From the NCBI GenBank assembly GCA_028284955.1, contig JANQQS010000184.1, positions 1 through 47,336 of the forward strand: 47,336 bases of DNA, read 5' to 3'. This document shows positions 4,595 to 20,632 of the stretch, one piece after another. Position 1 is the stretch's first letter, and each line of letters starts with the position of its first letter. The translations under genes and the position numbers were made by a program. The stretch comes from Myxococcota bacterium (GTDB lineage Bacteria > Myxococcota_A > Polyangia > Polyangiales > Houyiibacteriaceae). The notes under the pieces are model-generated. The model saw nothing but the letters and a program-made list of their open reading frames with translations. It was not told the origin of the DNA and did no database searches.

Positions 4595-6208
4595 ATGGCG
4601 ACTGTGGCTCATGCAGCGTGCGTGGAAGGGGTAGCTGCGCGTTTGGTTCAAGTCGAGGTGCAAATCGGTCGAGGTTTGCCCGGTATCGACATCGTGGGTT
4701 TGCCTGAGCGTGGGGTGCGCGAGAGCAAAGTTCGTGTGCGCGCGGCGCTGGACGCAGAAGGCTTCGCGATTCCTCCTCGTCACGTCGTGATCAACTTGGC
4801 GCCGGGCGATCTGCGTAAGACAGGCTCTGGTTTTGATCTTGCGATAGCTGCCGCCATGCTTGGTCATGTCGACGCTGCGTCGGGAGACAAGTTGCCGGAT
4901 ACGCTGTTGATCGGGGAGCTTGGTCTCGATGGAAGCGTGCGTGGTATTCGGGGTGTGTTGCCCCAGCTTCTTGCGGCGCGGCGCGTGGGCCTCAGGCGAG
5001 CGGTCATCCCGACGGAAAACGCTTCGGATGGAGTGCGCATCGCGCAGCTGATTTGCTCGGAAGACTTCGAAGTATTCTGTGCAGCCCATTTGCACGATGT
5101 CGTGGCGTGGCTGAACTCCGAAACGGAGCTTCCGGCGCCGAGCGATTGCTTGAGCGTGGAGCTGCGAACGCCCACGCACGACGCCATCGACGAGTGGGGG
5201 CAGGCGACGAAGCCTCCGGAAGATCTGGCCGACCTCAAAGGGCAGGCGTCGGCTCGGCGGGCGCTCGAGGTCGCTGCCGCAGGAGGCCACCACTTGTTGC
5301 TCGTAGGGCCCCCCGGAGCTGGAAAAACTATGTTGGCGCGACGTTTGCGGTCTATTTTGCCGTGTCCCGATCCCGACGAATTGCTCGAGATCGCGACTAT
5401 CGCGAGCGTTGCTGGAGATGCTTCGCCGGTTGCGCAAAGGCTGGAAGAGGCGAATACGCGACTCGGCGCCACACTCGGCCGACCCTTCCGTGCTCCGCAC
5501 CACAGCGCGAGTACGGCGGCGTTGATCGGGGGTGGAGATCCGGTACGACCTGGTGAGCTTACGCTTGCCCATCGCGGAGTGCTGTTTCTCGACGAGCTCC
5601 CTGAATTTCGGCGCGACGTCATCGAATCACTGCGTACCGCGCTCGAGCTTGGTCACGTCACTTTGGCGCGCGCGCGTGCTCGGGTCACGTTGCCTTCTGC
5701 GCCGATGGTGGTCGCGGCCATGAATCCATGTCCGTGCGGCTACGCCACCGATCGTACCCGTGTGTGTGTATGCGGTCCTGAGGTGACGGACCGGTATCGT
5801 CGGCGGGTCTCGGGCCCACTTCTCGATCGGTTCGATATGCACGTTCACGTGCCACGGGTGCATCTGCCGTCCCTCCGACAAGAAACTTCTGGAGAATCCT
5901 CGGCCACGGTAGCGGCTCGCGTGCGCATGGCTCGCGACCGCGCTCGCGCACGGGGACCCCAGCGAGGCGTGGAAATGTGGACAAGGACTCTCGCCACCGA
6001 CGCGCTTTCGCTCCTTGACCGTGCCGCGGAACGACTTCGGCTTAGCGCGCGAGGCTACCTGAAGACGATTCGGGTAGCGCGGACAATCGCGGACTTGGCT
6101 GGCCAGGACACGATCGATTCCGCTGCGATCGCTGAGGCGATTCAATATCGCGTGCTGGATCGAGACCTTGCGCGCGGCGATGTCTCATCGGTTGGAGATT
6201 CTTTGTGA
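4595..6208 (+). CDS. comM: ComM/YifB family Mg-chelatase-like AAA+ ATPase
   Basis: A 537-aa YifB/ComM family protein. The N-terminal ChlI-like domain (about 1-170) starts with the family-typical short Met-Ala-containing leader and [18 protein letters not shown]. The AAA+ core has Walker A GPPGAGKT at 238-245, a Walker B region FLDELPEF, and [11 protein letters not shown] before the C-terminal Mg-chelatase-like domain. Characterised ComM is a hexameric helicase that promotes branch migration when transformed single-stranded DNA is integrated. Here it is followed after 44 bp by recA on the same strand, which supports a recombination role. AAGGGG precedes the ATG. Antisense frames over this gene are shadows. 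Confidence 0.93.
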
Positions 6209-6252
6209 TCGGAAATTGGAGAAGAACCCGTGATGAAAGAAGAGAGGACACC

Positions 6253-7257
6253 GTGACGAAAGAAAAAATGAAAGCAGTCGAGCACACCTATCGGGCGATT
6301 GAAAAAGCATTTGGAAAAGGCGCAGTCATGCGCCTTGGCGATCAATCGACCGAACAAGTGCCGGCTATCGTGACCGGCTGTGATTCGTTGACCGAAGCAT
6401 TGGGGTGTGGCGGCTATCCACGAGGCCGACTGATCGAAGTATTCGGACCAGAAGCGAGCGGGAAGACCACATTGACGCTGCATGCCATTGCTGAATGCCA
6501 ACGTCTCGGCGGCGTGGCGGGGTTCATCGACGCCGAGCATGCACTGGACGTGCAATACGCCAAGGCGATCGGTGTGCGAGAAGAAGGGTTGCTGGTGAGC
6601 CAACCCGACTGTGGTGAGCAGGCGCTCGAAATCGCCGACATGATGGTTCAAGGCGGCGGGGTCGACCTCATTGTGGTCGACTCGGTGGCTGCGCTTGTCC
6701 CGAAAGCTGAAATCGATGGCGAAATGGGTGACCAGCACGTGGGTCTGCAAGCGCGCTTGATGAGTCGTGCGCTCCGAAAGTTGACCGGAATCTGCCATCG
6801 CACGCAGACCACGATGATGTTTATCAACCAGCTGCGCATGAAAATCGGGGTGTCGTTTGGCTCCCCGGAGACCACTCCCGGCGGCCACGCGCTTCGCTAC
6901 TACACCAGTGTTCGGCTCGATGTGCGTCGCGTGGGAAGCGTCAAAGTCGGCGAGCGGATTGTGGGAAATCGTACGCGAGTCAAAGTGCTAAAGAACAAGC
7001 TCGCGCCTCCGTTTCAGATCGCGGAGTTCGACATTCGCTATGGCGAGGGGTTCGACGTGGTTGGCGATCTCATCGATCGAGCGGTTGCTGCGGAAGTGGT
7101 CGAGAAAAATGGCGCGTACTATCGCTTTGCCGGCAAGCCGTTGGCGCAAGGCCGTGAGAACACGCGAACACTGCTGCGATCTGACGAAGCGCTGCGCGCA
7201 CGGATTATCCAGGCTCTGCAGGTCGACGAAAAAGCGCTCAAGACTGCGGCGGCGTAG
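6253..7257 (+). CDS. recA: RecA recombinase
   Basis: RecA, 334 aa from the chosen GTG at 6253, which has AGAGG a few bases upstream and gives the usual short N-terminus before the [15 protein letters not shown] motif. The frame is open back to a GTG overlapping the comM stop, but that adds an atypical charged leader. Visible motifs are Walker [10 protein letters not shown], the QPD-GEQAL segment, the DSVAALVP Walker B, loop L1/L2 regions and [20 protein letters not shown]. It forms the strand-exchange filament and stimulates LexA cleavage. Some normally invariant positions are unusual (Cys in [15 protein letters not shown] for GGNALKFY), so a second RecA elsewhere in the genome is possible, as in Myxococcus xanthus. 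Likely co-transcribed with comM. No SOS box was identified. Confidence 0.95.
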
Positions 7258-15208: not shown

Positions 15209-15781
15209 ATGAAAACGGGGCGAATGGTGTGGATGGACCTCGAGATGACGGGGCTCGATCCGGAGCGCGAACGCATTATTGAAATCGCGGCGCTGATCAC
15301 CGATGCAGAGCTCAACGTCGTCGCGGAAGGGCCCAACCTCGTGGTGCATCAAGCCGAGAACGTCCTTTCGCAAATGGACGACTGGAACAAGAAACATCAC
15401 GGAGAATCTGGGTTGCTCGAACGTGTCCGCGCATCGACGCTGAGCGAACAGGACGCGGACGAGCAAGTAGCGCGCTTTCTCACCGAGCACACAAGCAAAA
15501 GAAAAGCTCCCCTTGCCGGGAACTCCATTCATCAAGACCGCCGATTCCTTCAGCGATACATGCCGAAAATCGACGGCTGGCTGCACTACCGACTGGTGGA
15601 TGTATCGACGGTGAAGGAGCTCGCGCTGCGCTGGTACCCCAAGGAGTACGAAGCGCGACCCAATAAGAAAGGCGCACACCGGGCGCTGGACGATATTCAT
15701 GAGTCGCTCGCCGAGCTTCGGTACTACCGAAAACATCTATTCCGCCGTAACGGCGGCGACGAATCAGCGGGCGCGGTTTGA
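15209..15781 (+). CDS. orn: Oligoribonuclease
   Basis: Orn, 190 aa, a DEDD-family 3'-5' exoribonuclease that degrades di- to pentaribonucleotides, including pGpG from c-di-GMP turnover. Exo I is WMDLEMTGLDP, Exo II lies around GNSIHQDRRFL and Exo III near HRALDDIHESLAEL, so the DEDDh acidic residues and His are present. Length is typical. GCGGG precedes the ATG. It is divergent from polA with a 49-bp gap and overlaps the 3' end of the minus-strand secreted protein gene by 18 bp. Confidence 0.95.
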   Translation: MKTGRMVWMDLEMTGLDPERERIIEIAALITDAELNVVAEGPNLVVHQAENVLSQMDDWNKKHHGESGLLERVRASTLSEQDADEQVARFLTEHTSKRKAPLAGNSIHQDRRFLQRYMPKIDGWLHYRLVDVSTVKELALRWYPKEYEARPNKKGAHRALDDIHESLAELRYYRKHLFRRNGGDESAGAV

Positions 15782-16924
15782 TCGAGAACGCTTCGAAGTG
15801 GCGCGGGTTTTTGGCTTCGCGCCAGCGTTCGGGTTTGCGCTCGCCTTTGGTTTTGTGTTCGACCGCGATTGAGGAGTTGGAAGAGCGTTTGGGTCGCGCA
15901 CCCATTCCGGCGGAGTGTCTCGGTTGGTTCCTTCCCATCGCGCCACGATGAACAGCTGGTTTTGTGATTTGATCCATTGCAGCAGTGTGACGACGCCATT
16001 GCCGACCCGTCCGGGTCGAGGACGTCGCGAAGTGAAGATCACCAGCAATCGGTTTGCACCATGCGGAGCCACTGCAAGGCTCGCGCTCCGGTCGCCAGCG
16101 CGGAACCGAATGAGCTCTTTGCGGCGTGCGCCCTCGGTGACGCAGAGCGTGGGCACCAGCAATCCGGGTTCGTTGTGTAGAGCGTTGGTTTGAACCGATA
16201 GCAGCATTTCGCGTCCGTCGGTGGTTGCCCAAAGCGCTTCACGCATCATGCTCGGTTCCCAGAGACGTAGCCTCTCCGAGAGTCGAGGCGGCGGATCGGG
16301 CATCGCTGTAGGCGCGCGTGTGCTGTCGAGGAGTACGTCGCCAGTGCTCGTATTGTAGACCTGCACTGCTTTGATATGAATCGTGATGCCGCGTCGGGGT
16401 TCGTCGGACCAGACATCGCCGAAGGTGAACACCATGCGTGCCCGAAGTCGCGACGGGTTGTTCCGAGCTCGCCACGCGCGGGCACGCGAAGGCTCAACTC
16501 GATGAAACTGAGCCACCAAGGGCAACGGTGGCAGCCTGCCTTGGACCATAGGCGCGATGGATACGATTTTCAGGCCTTGCCGACCTCGGCGAAAGGCGAG
16601 GCCTGGTAGAGACACGCGAAAGCCCTCTTCTAATGATTCGTAAGGACCCACACGAACGTATCGTCCTGCCGGGATGGTAAGGAGCCACGTTTTTTCGCGC
16701 ACCTTGGTCGCAGACTCGCTGGCGCATGGCGTCTCGCCTGCGCGGCATCGTATCAGCAGGGGCGAAGCGAGGTTCATGACGGTTCCGGGAACCTCGGTTG
16801 CGTCTTTCGCGACTTCTGAAAACCCTTGAGCTTGGGCAGGAGCTGTCAGCAGGGTGGTGAGTGCGAGACAGCATGAGAACCCGGAGAATGCTACAGGCAC
16901 CTGAATTTGCGGCGAACGGGGCAC
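15764..16924 (-). CDS. Secreted protein of unknown function
   Basis: No family recognised. A hydrophobic signal (CCLALTTLLTAPAQAQG) is followed by a beta-rich region that includes WLLTIPAGRYVRVGPYESL and a central segment with ITIHIKAVQVYNTSTGDVLLD. The tail (about the last 50 residues) is rich in Lys, Arg, Pro, Asn and Ala. The start is uncertain: GTG at 16924 gives about 386 aa and GTG at 16900 a shorter signal; neither has a clear ribosome site. The frame remains open upstream, but that part overlaps the beta-barrel gene and is not credible coding. It probably belongs to the PAP2-kinase-barrel unit on the same strand, 43 bp downstream of the barrel gene. Confidence 0.62.
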   Translation of the reverse strand: MPRSPQIQVPVAFSGFSCCLALTTLLTAPAQAQGFSEVAKDATEVPGTVMNLASPLLIRCRAGETPCASESATKVREKTWLLTIPAGRYVRVGPYESLEEGFRVSLPGLAFRRGRQGLKIVSIAPMVQGRLPPLPLVAQFHRVEPSRARAWRARNNPSRLRARMVFTFGDVWSDEPRRGITIHIKAVQVYNTSTGDVLLDSTRAPTAMPDPPPRLSERLRLWEPSMMREALWATTDGREMLLSVQTNALHNEPGLLVPTLCVTEGARRKELIRFRAGDRSASLAVAPHGANRLLVIFTSRRPRPGRVGNGVVTLLQWIKSQNQLFIVARWEGTNRDTPPEWVRDPNALPTPQSRSNTKPKASANPNAGAKPKTRATSKRSRSNRAR

Positions 16925-16967
16925 CGGCGGCTTGGACGGAGTTTGCGGCCGAGACTTCAACGAGGAA

Positions 16968-17759
16968 TCAAAAGCCAATGGGGACCGAGGTTCCGAAGAT
17001 GAGCTCCCATTCGCGGGCGGTATCGCCGACGTAAAAGTTAAAGCCGGCGGTGATATCCACAAGCGCCCGCCGCTTGGCGATGGTGTATCCGAGGAATCCT
17101 CCAATCGGCGCCTCGACGTCGTCGAAATCTAGCAGCACCAGGCCGGTCTTGAATCCGAGGAACACATTGCGAGTGACGTTGAACGCCACTGCGACGGGCA
17201 GGTCGAGGTTCGTTTGGGTGTCGTCGAAAAATACGGCTTCGAATTCCCCGCCGAGGTCGATGCGCGCAAACGATCCGAGCCGCAGCCGAATAGGTACCCC
17301 GATGCCGAATCCGAATTCGGTTTGGGTCGGAAACTGGAGCGCGAACTGGACGCCGATATCCGCGATGCGGGAGGAAAAAAACCGATAGCGTCCCCAGACT
17401 TCCATGTCGCCGTAGTCGCCGTCCGGAGCAAGCTGAACGGGAAGGAAAAACCATCCGAGCTCGAAGTCGTCGACGAAGCTGAACGCTGCACCGATGCCTA
17501 GCGTGACGAACACGTCGTCGTCGGCGGGCGTGTCCACGGAGAGAATCCGAAGACCGTAGCCCGAGCCGATGGCACCAGAATCGAGCATCGCGCGATCGGG
17601 AGGCGCGACATCGATTCGCAACGTGTTCTTGGGGCCGGTCAGAGGTCGGCTGACGAATGGGGTGGGCCCTTGCGCGGCTGCCGTGGAAATTCCGACGGTT
17701 GCGGCCGCCGAAGCGACCAAACCGAAACATGCACCCAGAAAGCATAGAACTAGTTTCAT
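16968..17759 (-). CDS. Predicted outer-membrane beta-barrel protein
   Basis: A 263-aa protein with a Sec signal peptide (MKLVLCFLGACFGLVAS, cleavage near AAAQ). Alternating hydrophobic strands rich in Gly and aromatic residues follow, for example FELGWFFLPVQLAPDGDYG, VWGRYRFFSSRIADIGVQF and LRLGSFARIDLGGEFEAVFF, with a C-terminal Phe. This pattern fits an 8- to 12-stranded outer-membrane barrel; no specific porin family is recognised. It lies 80 bp downstream of the kinase gene on the same strand and could be an envelope partner of the kinase's extracytoplasmic domains (inference). Confidence 0.75.
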   Translation of the reverse strand: MKLVLCFLGACFGLVASAAATVGISTAAAQGPTPFVSRPLTGPKNTLRIDVAPPDRAMLDSGAIGSGYGLRILSVDTPADDDVFVTLGIGAAFSFVDDFELGWFFLPVQLAPDGDYGDMEVWGRYRFFSSRIADIGVQFALQFPTQTEFGFGIGVPIRLRLGSFARIDLGGEFEAVFFDDTQTNLDLPVAVAFNVTRNVFLGFKTGLVLLDFDDVEAPIGGFLGYTIAKRRALVDITAGFNFYVGDTAREWELIFGTSVPIGF

Positions 17760-17839: not shown

Positions 17840-19942
17840 CTATCCGTAGCGCATCAGGATGTGAAAACCCTCTTCGGTCTCGAGCAGGTCGCTCACATGG
17901 CCGACACGCAGCGCAGATGCGCCCCGACGGAGCGATGGTTGGAGTTCTGATAGGTGCGTCGATCCGAGGTCGACGACGCGGTCCGAAAATCGATACGCAA
18001 GGGCGTGAAAATCCATATCGCCCACCCGAGCACGGCGAAGGATACTTTCGGCGCGCTTTTTTGCGACTTGTCGCGATCGGTGGACCCCAGTCGCAGCGTT
18101 GCGTGCGCCCGACCACTGCACCAACGCGGATACCAGGTCCATTCGTGTGCCCGCATCGATGACCGCGGTGGCGGCTACGGCGACTGCACCGTGCCGCTCG
18201 CGCCCGAGCGCGGCTTCGATCACGTCAAAGAGCGGGTCGAGTGCGAACGTTCCGGCAAATCGCTGCCCGTTCACGAAAAGCGCAGGGCCACCGTCGACTT
18301 GAAGGGATTCGGCAAGCGCGGCATCCGCGGCGATCGTCGATGCGTGGCGACGGCTGCGGAGCGCGTGCCGAAAACCGGTCAAGTTCAACCCCGCGTTGGT
18401 GATATATCGCTCGAGCGCCTCGCCACCGAGTTGGCCCGGCGCTTGACAAAGAGATTCATAGAGGCGCTGAAAACCCGGTTCCGAGCCCTGCGCGTATGAT
18501 TCGTACAAGGCGGCGGCAACCGCACCAGCCGAGCTTTGCGGACCGGGCAATGCCCGCCAGACGATGGCCACGTCGTCTCGAAAACGCTGTTGCACCTGGG
18601 CGACAAGTTGCGCCGCTTTGCGACCGCGACCTGAATACAGATCGAGGAACGCGAGCAGTGTGACCTTCGGCTCTTCGTTGCCGAATCTCGGCGCAGTGGT
18701 GAGCGGGCGTTCGCTGTGGGTCGGTCGCACCGACACGGGCGCAATCGATGTCGGCTGCGGTAGCGCGAAGGGGCCTGCTTTGAGCAACGAGATTCCAAGC
18801 CATGTCAGCGACACCCCGGCGAGACAAGGAACTGAAAACCACGCGCTGAGCGCGATGCCGCTGGCGAACGCGGCGCCCACCAAACATGCCGCGGATGCGC
18901 CCGCCACCAGCGCTCCTGCGGTGGCCACCCCAAATCCCAGCGTTGTGCGTGGAGGAGGCAGCGACGGGCGTCTCGAATAGACGCCGGTGTGCGTGATTTC
19001 TGCGGGGAGCGACGAGAAATCGGGTGCGCTCGAAGGCGCGACGAGAAACGGAGCGAGCTCGCTCCGAAGGGCTGCCGCGTTTGGAGGTCGTCCCGCGGGG
19101 TCTTTGCAAAGACAGCGGTCGACAAGGTCGCTGAGCGCGGGGTCGACCCCGGTGGCCACCTCTCGCAGCGGTCGATGCGACTCGGTGCACGCCGCAACGA
19201 TGACCGCGTGGGCGGTTTCGCCGTCGAAAGGAAGCGATTGGGCGAAGGCTTCGTAAATCATCACCCCAACGGACCACACATCGGCGGTTGCGCTTGCGGC
19301 GCGTGAGTTGGTCGCTTGCTCCGGCGCCATATAGTACGGCGTTCCGACTGATGTTCCTGTCTGGGTAAGACCTTTCTGCATCCCTTTGCGGGCGATTCCG
19401 AAGTCCAAGATCTTCACTGACGTCGTTCCCGGAGCAATCGACATCGATCCGTGATGAGCAGACGAGCCACCTCGAGCGAGCACGAAAATATTGGCTGGTT
19501 TGATATCCCGATGGACGATGCCGTGTTCGTGCGCTGCCGCGAGGGGCACCAAGGCCTGGTCAATGATTCGCAGAAGCTCGGCGCCATGCGCGGAGGGATT
19601 GTTCATTGCGTCGGCGAACGTTTGCCCTTCGAGCAGCTCCATGGCGATGAAGAACGCGCCGGTGGTTTCATCCTCTCCCGCATCGAGTACGTCAACGATT
19701 CCCGGATGGCCGAGTTCTGCGGTGACCGCCGCTTCACGCCGAAAGCGCTCGACCGATACCTGGTCGGCGGAACCTGAATCGAGAAGCTTGAGCGCGGATA
19801 GTCGTCCGGTGACTGAGTGGCGCGCGACGTAGACTTGACCCATGCCGCCTTCGGCGAGGGGCCGGACTACGTGCCACCGGTCTCCAACCGTTTCCGGGCA
19901 TTTCGGTGGGTGGCTCGTGTAGCGAGATGCCGTAGAGGCCAT
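17840..19942 (-). CDS. Ser/Thr protein kinase fused to cysteine-less DsbA-like and parvulin-like domains
   Basis: A 700-aa protein in four parts. Residues 20-300 form an active-looking Hanks-type kinase: Gly loop LAEGGMGQVY, K52, HRDIKPAN (D146), DFG at 180-182 and APE at 206-208. Residues 333-394 are strongly hydrophobic with at least one, probably two, membrane segments. Residues 425-580 resemble a DsbA/thioredoxin-4 domain with cis-Pro segment GGPALFVNG (P553), but the expected CxxC is SGRG (437-440). Residues 620-700 resemble a parvulin PPIase domain (ILRRARVGDMDFHALAYRFS, then VGHVSDLLETEEGFHILM). If the helices span once, the C-terminal domains sit in the periplasm, so the protein could couple envelope protein folding to cytoplasmic phosphorylation (inference). 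It follows the PAP2 gene after 6 bp. Confidence 0.9.
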   Translation of the reverse strand: MASTASRYTSHPPKCPETVGDRWHVVRPLAEGGMGQVYVARHSVTGRLSALKLLDSGSADQVSVERFRREAAVTAELGHPGIVDVLDAGEDETTGAFFIAMELLEGQTFADAMNNPSAHGAELLRIIDQALVPLAAAHEHGIVHRDIKPANIFVLARGGSSAHHGSMSIAPGTTSVKILDFGIARKGMQKGLTQTGTSVGTPYYMAPEQATNSRAASATADVWSVGVMIYEAFAQSLPFDGETAHAVIVAACTESHRPLREVATGVDPALSDLVDRCLCKDPAGRPPNAAALRSELAPFLVAPSSAPDFSSLPAEITHTGVYSRRPSLPPPRTTLGFGVATAGALVAGASAACLVGAAFASGIALSAWFSVPCLAGVSLTWLGISLLKAGPFALPQPTSIAPVSVRPTHSERPLTTAPRFGNEEPKVTLLAFLDLYSGRGRKAAQLVAQVQQRFRDDVAIVWRALPGPQSSAGAVAAALYESYAQGSEPGFQRLYESLCQAPGQLGGEALERYITNAGLNLTGFRHALRSRRHASTIAADAALAESLQVDGGPALFVNGQRFAGTFALDPLFDVIEAALGRERHGAVAVAATAVIDAGTRMDLVSALVQWSGARNAATGVHRSRQVAKKRAESILRRARVGDMDFHALAYRFSDRVVDLGSTHLSELQPSLRRGASALRVGHVSDLLETEEGFHILMRYG

Positions 19943-19948
19943 ACGAAT

Positions 19949-20632
19949 TTAATCTGTACGGCGTTGCACGAGCTTGTTTGACCCACGAGGTATGCGGCCC
20001 CCGCTTCGTGGAGCGTGTACGGTGGGGTACGACACGTGCACGGCGAGTGCGCCGGCTGCGCCGAGCGACCAGCCCGCGACGACATCGGTCGCGTAGTGGA
20101 CGCCCAGATATACGCGGGAACAACCCACCAAGAGCGCAAAAGCGCCACCGAATATGGCCAGCGGAAGCAGACGCGGCAGGTCCATGCGTGCTGCGACCAA
20201 AAGCAAACCAGCTCCGAACGCGGCGGCTGCCTGGCTGTGTCCGCTCGGAAAGGCAAAACTGTGCGGCAAGTCAATCAACGCGAGGCCGTGTGGCCGTGGT
20301 CGCGCGAACAATCGTTTCAGAAGTTCGTTGGACGTTCCGGCGAGGAGCATGACGCTTCCGAAGTAGACCGCGTGCGACGCTGAAATGGCGCGTGGCGTGG
20401 CAAAACGGAGCAAACCCAGCGCAATACATAGGGACACCACCGAGAGTAGACGTCCGCCGCCGAGGGCGGTGATATGCTCCATCGTCTCAGTCAGCCACGA
20501 GACGCGAAACTCGTTCAGCCATCCAAACGCCAGCGCGTCAGCGTGGGTCGGACCGCGCTGCTGGTACGCTGCGAGTGCAATAGATACTGCGACGGTTATC
20601 GTCAGAATGTATCGGACTCGTTGCGGACTCAT
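19949..20632 (-). CDS. PAP2 family phosphatase
   Basis: A 227-aa integral membrane phosphatase of the PAP2 superfamily. The tripartite signature is complete: KRLFARPRP, PSGHSQ and SRVYLGVHYATDV. About five or six hydrophobic helices surround it. Members dephosphorylate undecaprenyl pyrophosphate, phosphatidic acid or related lipid phosphates; substrate cannot be told from sequence alone. The gene ends 6 bp before the kinase gene and they are likely co-transcribed, so the lipid phosphatase and the envelope-sensing kinase may serve one envelope process (inference). The C-terminal 25 residues are basic and predicted cytoplasmic. Confidence 0.9.
   Translation of the reverse strand: MSPQRVRYILTITVAVSIALAAYQQRGPTHADALAFGWLNEFRVSWLTETMEHITALGGGRLLSVVSLCIALGLLRFATPRAISASHAVYFGSVMLLAGTSNELLKRLFARPRPHGLALIDLPHSFAFPSGHSQAAAAFGAGLLLVAARMDLPRLLPLAIFGGAFALLVGCSRVYLGVHYATDVVAGWSLGAAGALAVHVSYPTVHAPRSGGRIPRGSNKLVQRRTD

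Follow-up and report, generated by a model that had tools for sequence, protein, structure and literature searches.

The window, a 47,336-nucleotide stretch of DNA from a Myxococcota bacterium, encodes a 700-residue protein in which a Hanks-type Ser/Thr kinase is joined, through two adjacent hydrophobic segments, to a DsbA-like domain and a parvulin-like domain. Sequence and structural modelling together establish the kinase, both folds, the loss of both catalytic sites and the paired segments, and the fusion is genuine and recurs as a rare family. We consider it somewhat probable that the protein is a membrane-anchored kinase whose DsbA-like and parvulin-like domains act as non-catalytic binding modules at the cytoplasmic face of the membrane, held there by a two-helix hairpin. 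An intact kinase beside retained but disarmed folds suggests that foldases have been repurposed as the binding module of a signalling kinase and kept for their shape, not their chemistry. The features of the locus are listed in the table.

Table. Features of the kinase locus, in positions of the window.
Feature	Position	Strand	Basis
Complete gene for the 700-residue fusion (kinase, TM pair, DsbA-like and parvulin-like domains)	17840..19942	(-)	Start codon ATG at 19942, last base of stop codon at 17840
Hanks-type Ser/Thr kinase domain, aa 24-293, motifs intact	19064..19873	(-)	Pfam, motif reading
Hydrophobic stretch at aa 335-391, predicted to form a helical hairpin of two TM helices	18770..18940	(-)	Sequence scan, AlphaFold
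DsbA-like thioredoxin-fold domain, aa 417-571	18230..18694	(-)	Pfam, AlphaFold, structure comparison
SGRG at the CxxC active-site position, aa 437-440	18623..18634	(-)	Sequence, alignment columns
Retained cis-Pro equivalent, P553	18284..18286	(-)	Alignment
Parvulin-like (PPIC) domain, aa 621-697 by Pfam and 594-700 by fold match	17852..18082	(-)	Pfam, AlphaFold, structure comparison
Phosphatase of the PAP2 family, immediately upstream with a 6-nt gap to the kinase start	19949..20632	(-)	ORF list, Pfam/NCBIfam
Downstream ORF, 263 aa, 80 nt past the kinase gene	16968..17759	(-)	ORF list

Domains and folds of the window protein

The kinase domain carries a glycine loop (LAEGGMGQV), ALK (50-53), HRD (144), DFG (180) and APE (206). 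With its Lys, HRD, DFG and APE in place it classes, by motif, as a Hanks-type Ser/Thr kinase. Four Pfam matches exceed their gathering scores: Pkinase (PF00069, residues 24-293, E 5e-45), Thioredoxin_4 (417-571, E 1e-5), DSBA (470-571, E 1e-8) and Rotamase/PPIC (PF00639, 621-697, E 1e-8). The Pfam scan of the window protein found no SurA_N or PrsA architecture, and the kinase precedes the PPIC domain.

AlphaFold, given window residues 330-700 and a 47-row alignment, modelled both C-terminal domains with pLDDT mostly above 90. In structure comparison the model matched the DsbA-type folds of ScsC (4gxz, Z 22.7) and BdbD (3eu3 and 3eu4, Z 21.9 and 21.8), with YjbH also among the matches (6ghb, Z 15.5), and its parvulin part matched Pin1 (8vz3, Z 15.6, 104 residues, 1.7 Å rmsd). 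A profile of seven relatives retrieves the same PDB families by sequence. The modelling confirms a predicted DsbA-type fold and a predicted parvulin fold in the C-terminus. A first-pass annotation of this DNA had described a kinase with intact motifs, a DsbA-like domain with SGRG for CxxC and a retained cis-Pro, and a C-terminal PPIC-like domain, and each of these assignments is borne out. It had also named two findings that would count against it, namely the absence of thioredoxin or parvulin folds and a fusion that was already catalogued. Pfam and AlphaFold find both folds, and no NCBIfam model covers the kinase-DsbA-parvulin fusion at its cut-off, the best NCBIfam score, 230 bits for NF033483, falling below that model's threshold of 450. 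PHROGs gave one weak match, to an unnamed entry.

A rare family with one origin and altered active sites

We searched with the C-terminus against 290 class genomes and then with profiles against 184 order genomes and 318 class genomes. The same kinase-TM-DsbA-parvulin order occurs in at least seven proteins from six of the 318 class genomes, a lower bound because few candidates were scored per genome and fragmented assemblies hide members. Besides the window protein these are single copies in genomes G223, G273, G173 (Myxococcales bacterium SB9154_S3_bin_3, a MAG) and G298 (Sandaracinaceae bacterium Chersky_785, a MAG) and two copies in G229. The order to which they belong is probably Polyangiales. 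Full matches among the 318 class genomes reached E 1e-132 or better across the whole model, all beginning in the TM part; the next-best matches, at E 1e-63, are kinase-free DsbA-parvulin proteins without it. The G223 member is divided between two contigs; their ends share about 46 residues, one of them mismatched. G048, which has the nearest kinase (58-61 percent) and the same membrane segment on a contig that stops before the DsbA domain, is a probable eighth member. A phylum-wide HMM search of 379 genomes at E 1e-50 covered the TM part in G173 and the window only, and a contig scan with the window C-terminus as query returned no relatives. We reject a sequencing or assembly artefact, because the fusion recurs in the same domain order on independent contigs of other genomes.

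In a 44-row kinase tree the eight kinase domains, that of G048 included, form one clade (93/89 support), within which the branching tracks genome families f1 and f7. In a tree of the C-terminal modules, from which active-site columns were left out, one branch (94/98) separates the family from 40 kinase-free DsbA homologues. The end branches of these modules are long (0.73-1.75), so their finer branching is unsure; such lengths are expected when catalysis stops constraining the domains. Sequence and model show one ancient fusion behind the family. Convergent fusions are disfavoured by the single kinase clade and by the position of all C-terminal modules on one side of a branch, although long branches weaken the latter point. 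The nearest kinases outside the family have different C-termini and one TM. These proteins (L147-L152, from G163, G157, G147, G199, G159 and G241) carry a C-terminal beta-rich domain with 'FDTYL..PSG....DND' motifs.

Active-site residues were counted in a single alignment of the seven members with kinase-free homologues (40 DsbA; 16 DsbA-PPIC). The first Cys of CxxC is present in four of seven members versus 39 of 40 kinase-free DsbA homologues, and both are kept in one member only, as CREC in G229a; cis-Pro persists in 6/7 versus 40/40. The redox cysteines were lost in several branches. The parvulin site has fared no better. Equivalents of Pin1 His59 and Phe134 are found in none of the seven members, that of Met130 in one and that of His157 in three, versus 16/16 kinase-free DsbA-PPIC proteins for each of the four, and G229a, despite its CREC, also lacks His59 and Phe134. 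In the window protein the His59, Met130 and Phe134 positions are occupied by S605, L667 and L671, the Cys113 loop is six residues shorter, and H694 (His157) is the only catalytic residue equivalent kept in the pocket. Both foldase domains thus look disarmed while their folds persist. The first-pass annotation, which had called one of them redox-dead, was right about the DsbA CxxC and understated the case, the parvulin site being degenerate too.

Membrane topology, gene neighbours and rival readings

Membrane segments were detected with a GES-scale scan, using as controls 20 kinase regions from the genome that carries the window and 15 near kinases from its relatives. An adjacent hydrophobic pair is present in all seven complete C-termini versus none of the 35 control kinases, 28 of which show a single segment. 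The loops between the two segments measure 0-10 residues and are uncharged or short, that of the window member being the least clear. Lys/Arg stands on both flanks of the pair in most members, and K/R versus D/E counts in the 30 residues after TM2 (3/1, 6/2, 3/4, 4/0, 7/2, 8/2 and 4/3) show a K/R excess in six of seven, with little or no positive-inside bias in G173 and G298. In G048 an uncharged stretch of 44 residues, scanned as one segment and long enough for two, precedes RANGERRRH. In the AlphaFold model of the window protein, consecutive helices span residues 332-359 and 363-388 with moderate pLDDT (about 60-77); when G229a is modelled at full length, TM2 alone is helical and the region of TM1 stays unmodelled (pLDDT about 30, few alignment rows there). 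The kinase domain is cytoplasmic, where ATP is, and if the chain crosses the membrane an even number of times, the DsbA and parvulin domains would be cytoplasmic too. These features predict a helical hairpin. The first-pass annotation had recognised hydrophobic helices and a membrane kinase, and the membrane segment stands; its doubling was missed. The extracytoplasmic position given to the folding-type domains is not supported, as two TM segments with Lys/Arg flanks predict the cytoplasmic side.

The PAP2 gene and the kinase gene are probably co-transcribed in the window. The downstream ORF, which the earlier reading had taken for a beta-barrel, has no Pfam or NCBIfam match. That reading cited the co-location of both genes as support for an envelope system, an argument that fails because neither lies beside any other member; an envelope operon with PAP2 and the barrel is rejected on the same ground. 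The genome search that it had proposed, for the architecture together with these neighbours, recovers the first and not the second. Genes for RR-EAL proteins and hybrid histidine kinases adjoin the members in G173, G273 and G298, and other neighbours encode a GGDEF-HDOD protein (G298), an ABC transporter (G223), an HMGL-like enzyme (G048) or are unrelated genes (G229). The minus-strand ORFs 15767-17104 and 16968-17759 share 137 nt, and no family match was found for either; the first, of 446 aa, probably has its true start further downstream.

In the reading we favour, the two-helix hairpin would hold the C-terminal module at the cytoplasmic face of the inner membrane, where the disarmed DsbA-like and parvulin-like domains would bind protein or peptide. 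We infer that the ligand is a polypeptide, and its binding could either bring polypeptide substrates to the kinase (docking) or tune the dimerisation or activity of the kinase (sensing), two roles that stand side by side. Against this reading, fast-evolving domains could simply be decaying, and the DsbA-parvulin module has its ancestral home in the envelope, since its homologues without a kinase are secreted proteins (L077 and L078 have a lipobox). Much more tentatively, an envelope foldase module may have come to lie in the cytoplasm behind a membrane hairpin, where it lost both catalytic sites and was retained to read clients, so that the kinase reports on polypeptides at the inner membrane face.

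A single-span receptor kinase, in effect PknE plus a parvulin, would instead place the DsbA-like and parvulin-like domains in the periplasm as sensors of unfolded envelope proteins. PknE offers the precedent (PMC3792642), the TM-bearing kinases of the window's own genome are mostly single-span, the kinase-free DsbA-parvulin relatives are lipoproteins, and the sequence matches that the relatives' profile finds for the parvulin part include SurA, a chaperone of the periplasm. We nevertheless regard this arrangement as unlikely: every member has the TM pair and most have Lys/Arg past the second segment, a combination seen in no control, and the PAP2 and barrel neighbours are not conserved. If the hairpin prediction is right there is therefore no envelope sensor. 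The sensor of unfolded envelope protein in the first-pass annotation accordingly survives as a binding idea on the cytoplasmic side only, its envelope location being unsupported given the TM pair.

Less probable still is a C-terminal tandem that serves for dimerisation or stability alone, with the signal read by the hairpin as membrane state, or through expression level. The C-terminal part does evolve fast, and the hairpin is, by position, the most constant non-kinase feature of the family. All complete members, which represent three families, nevertheless have both folds, and the invariant surface residues (H533, R622, A627, R630-A631, R637 and D644-F645) exceed the needs of a mere spacer. 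Very improbable is a Pin1-like kinase-isomerase unit in which the parvulin part acts on phospho-Ser/Thr-Pro products of the kinase itself, by isomerising or binding them, for although Pin1 is the nearest solved fold and Arg occupies the Pin1 R68 position in five of seven members, K63 is not kept, the Cys113-bearing loop is shortened in five of the seven, and His59, Met130 and Phe134 are lost in seven, six and seven of them.

Relation to known proteins

The kinase-DsbA fusion is, as a kind, already known: PknE (Rv1743) of M. tuberculosis was noted in 2005 as a Ser/Thr kinase with a DsbA-like domain (PMC1262709). It is the closest known protein, sharing the Hanks kinase, the membrane anchor and the C-terminal DsbA-like domain. 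PknE is a single-pass protein of 566 aa (TM 337-359) whose extracytoplasmic DsbA domain has a CPPC motif, and it has no parvulin domain (PMC3792642); the window family, in contrast, has a TM pair, a predicted cytoplasmic C-terminus, an added parvulin and a CxxC lost in six of seven members. A search of freely accessible literature found no description of a kinase-parvulin fusion or of a myxobacterial kinase-DsbA fusion. The novelty lies in an added parvulin, a predicted hairpin in the membrane, two lost active sites and the presence of the fusion in Myxococcota.

Bacterial kinases usually sense through extracellular domains, and their ligands are mostly unknown. PASTA kinases are single-span proteins with extracellular PASTA repeats; the window protein shares the kinase domain type of these PknB/PASTA-type receptors and lacks the repeats. 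It shares fold and cis-Pro with ScsC/BdbD oxidoreductases of the DsbA family but is kinase-fused, predicted to be cytoplasmic and without CxxC, and it resembles Pin1/parvulin-type PPIases in fold but has neither their catalytic pocket residues nor a WW domain. YjbH, a cytosolic DsbA-fold adaptor that holds Spx for degradation, illustrates that cytosolic DsbA folds can act as adaptors. The likeness, a cytosolic DsbA-type fold holding a partner, is an analogy only, as YjbH has no kinase or parvulin.

A kinase joined to two disarmed folding enzymes offers a natural test of foldase grooves as receptors for unfolded or proline-rich segments. Two adjacent enzyme domains that lose catalysis while one family keeps the architecture make a clear pseudoenzyme case in bacterial signalling. 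Should the topology prediction hold, this protein also cautions against calling every kinase-TM-foldase fusion an envelope stress sensor.

The nearest relatives of the C-terminal module are Polyangiales triple-DsbA lipoproteins, which have the same DsbA-then-parvulin order with a Pin1-type parvulin. They differ in being secreted, in lacking a kinase, in having three DsbA copies and in keeping His59, Met130, Phe134 and His157 intact. Such lipoproteins occur in several Polyangiales genomes (L053, L061, L077:2373-5177, L078:2150-5176 and 4618-7080), those of L078 being a tandem pair, and we know of no name for their architecture. The window's own genome encodes a 712-aa triple-DsbA protein (C219:15173-16987; L047:3156-5291) with three CPFC motifs, an N-terminal membrane anchor and no parvulin, relatives of which are found in nearly all genomes searched. 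A further DsbA-like match there (C153:16773-17399) is interrupted by four stop codons and may be either a decayed copy or an inter-domain frame. The same genome has a large Hanks kinome, with about 110 kinase matches in 6 Mb.
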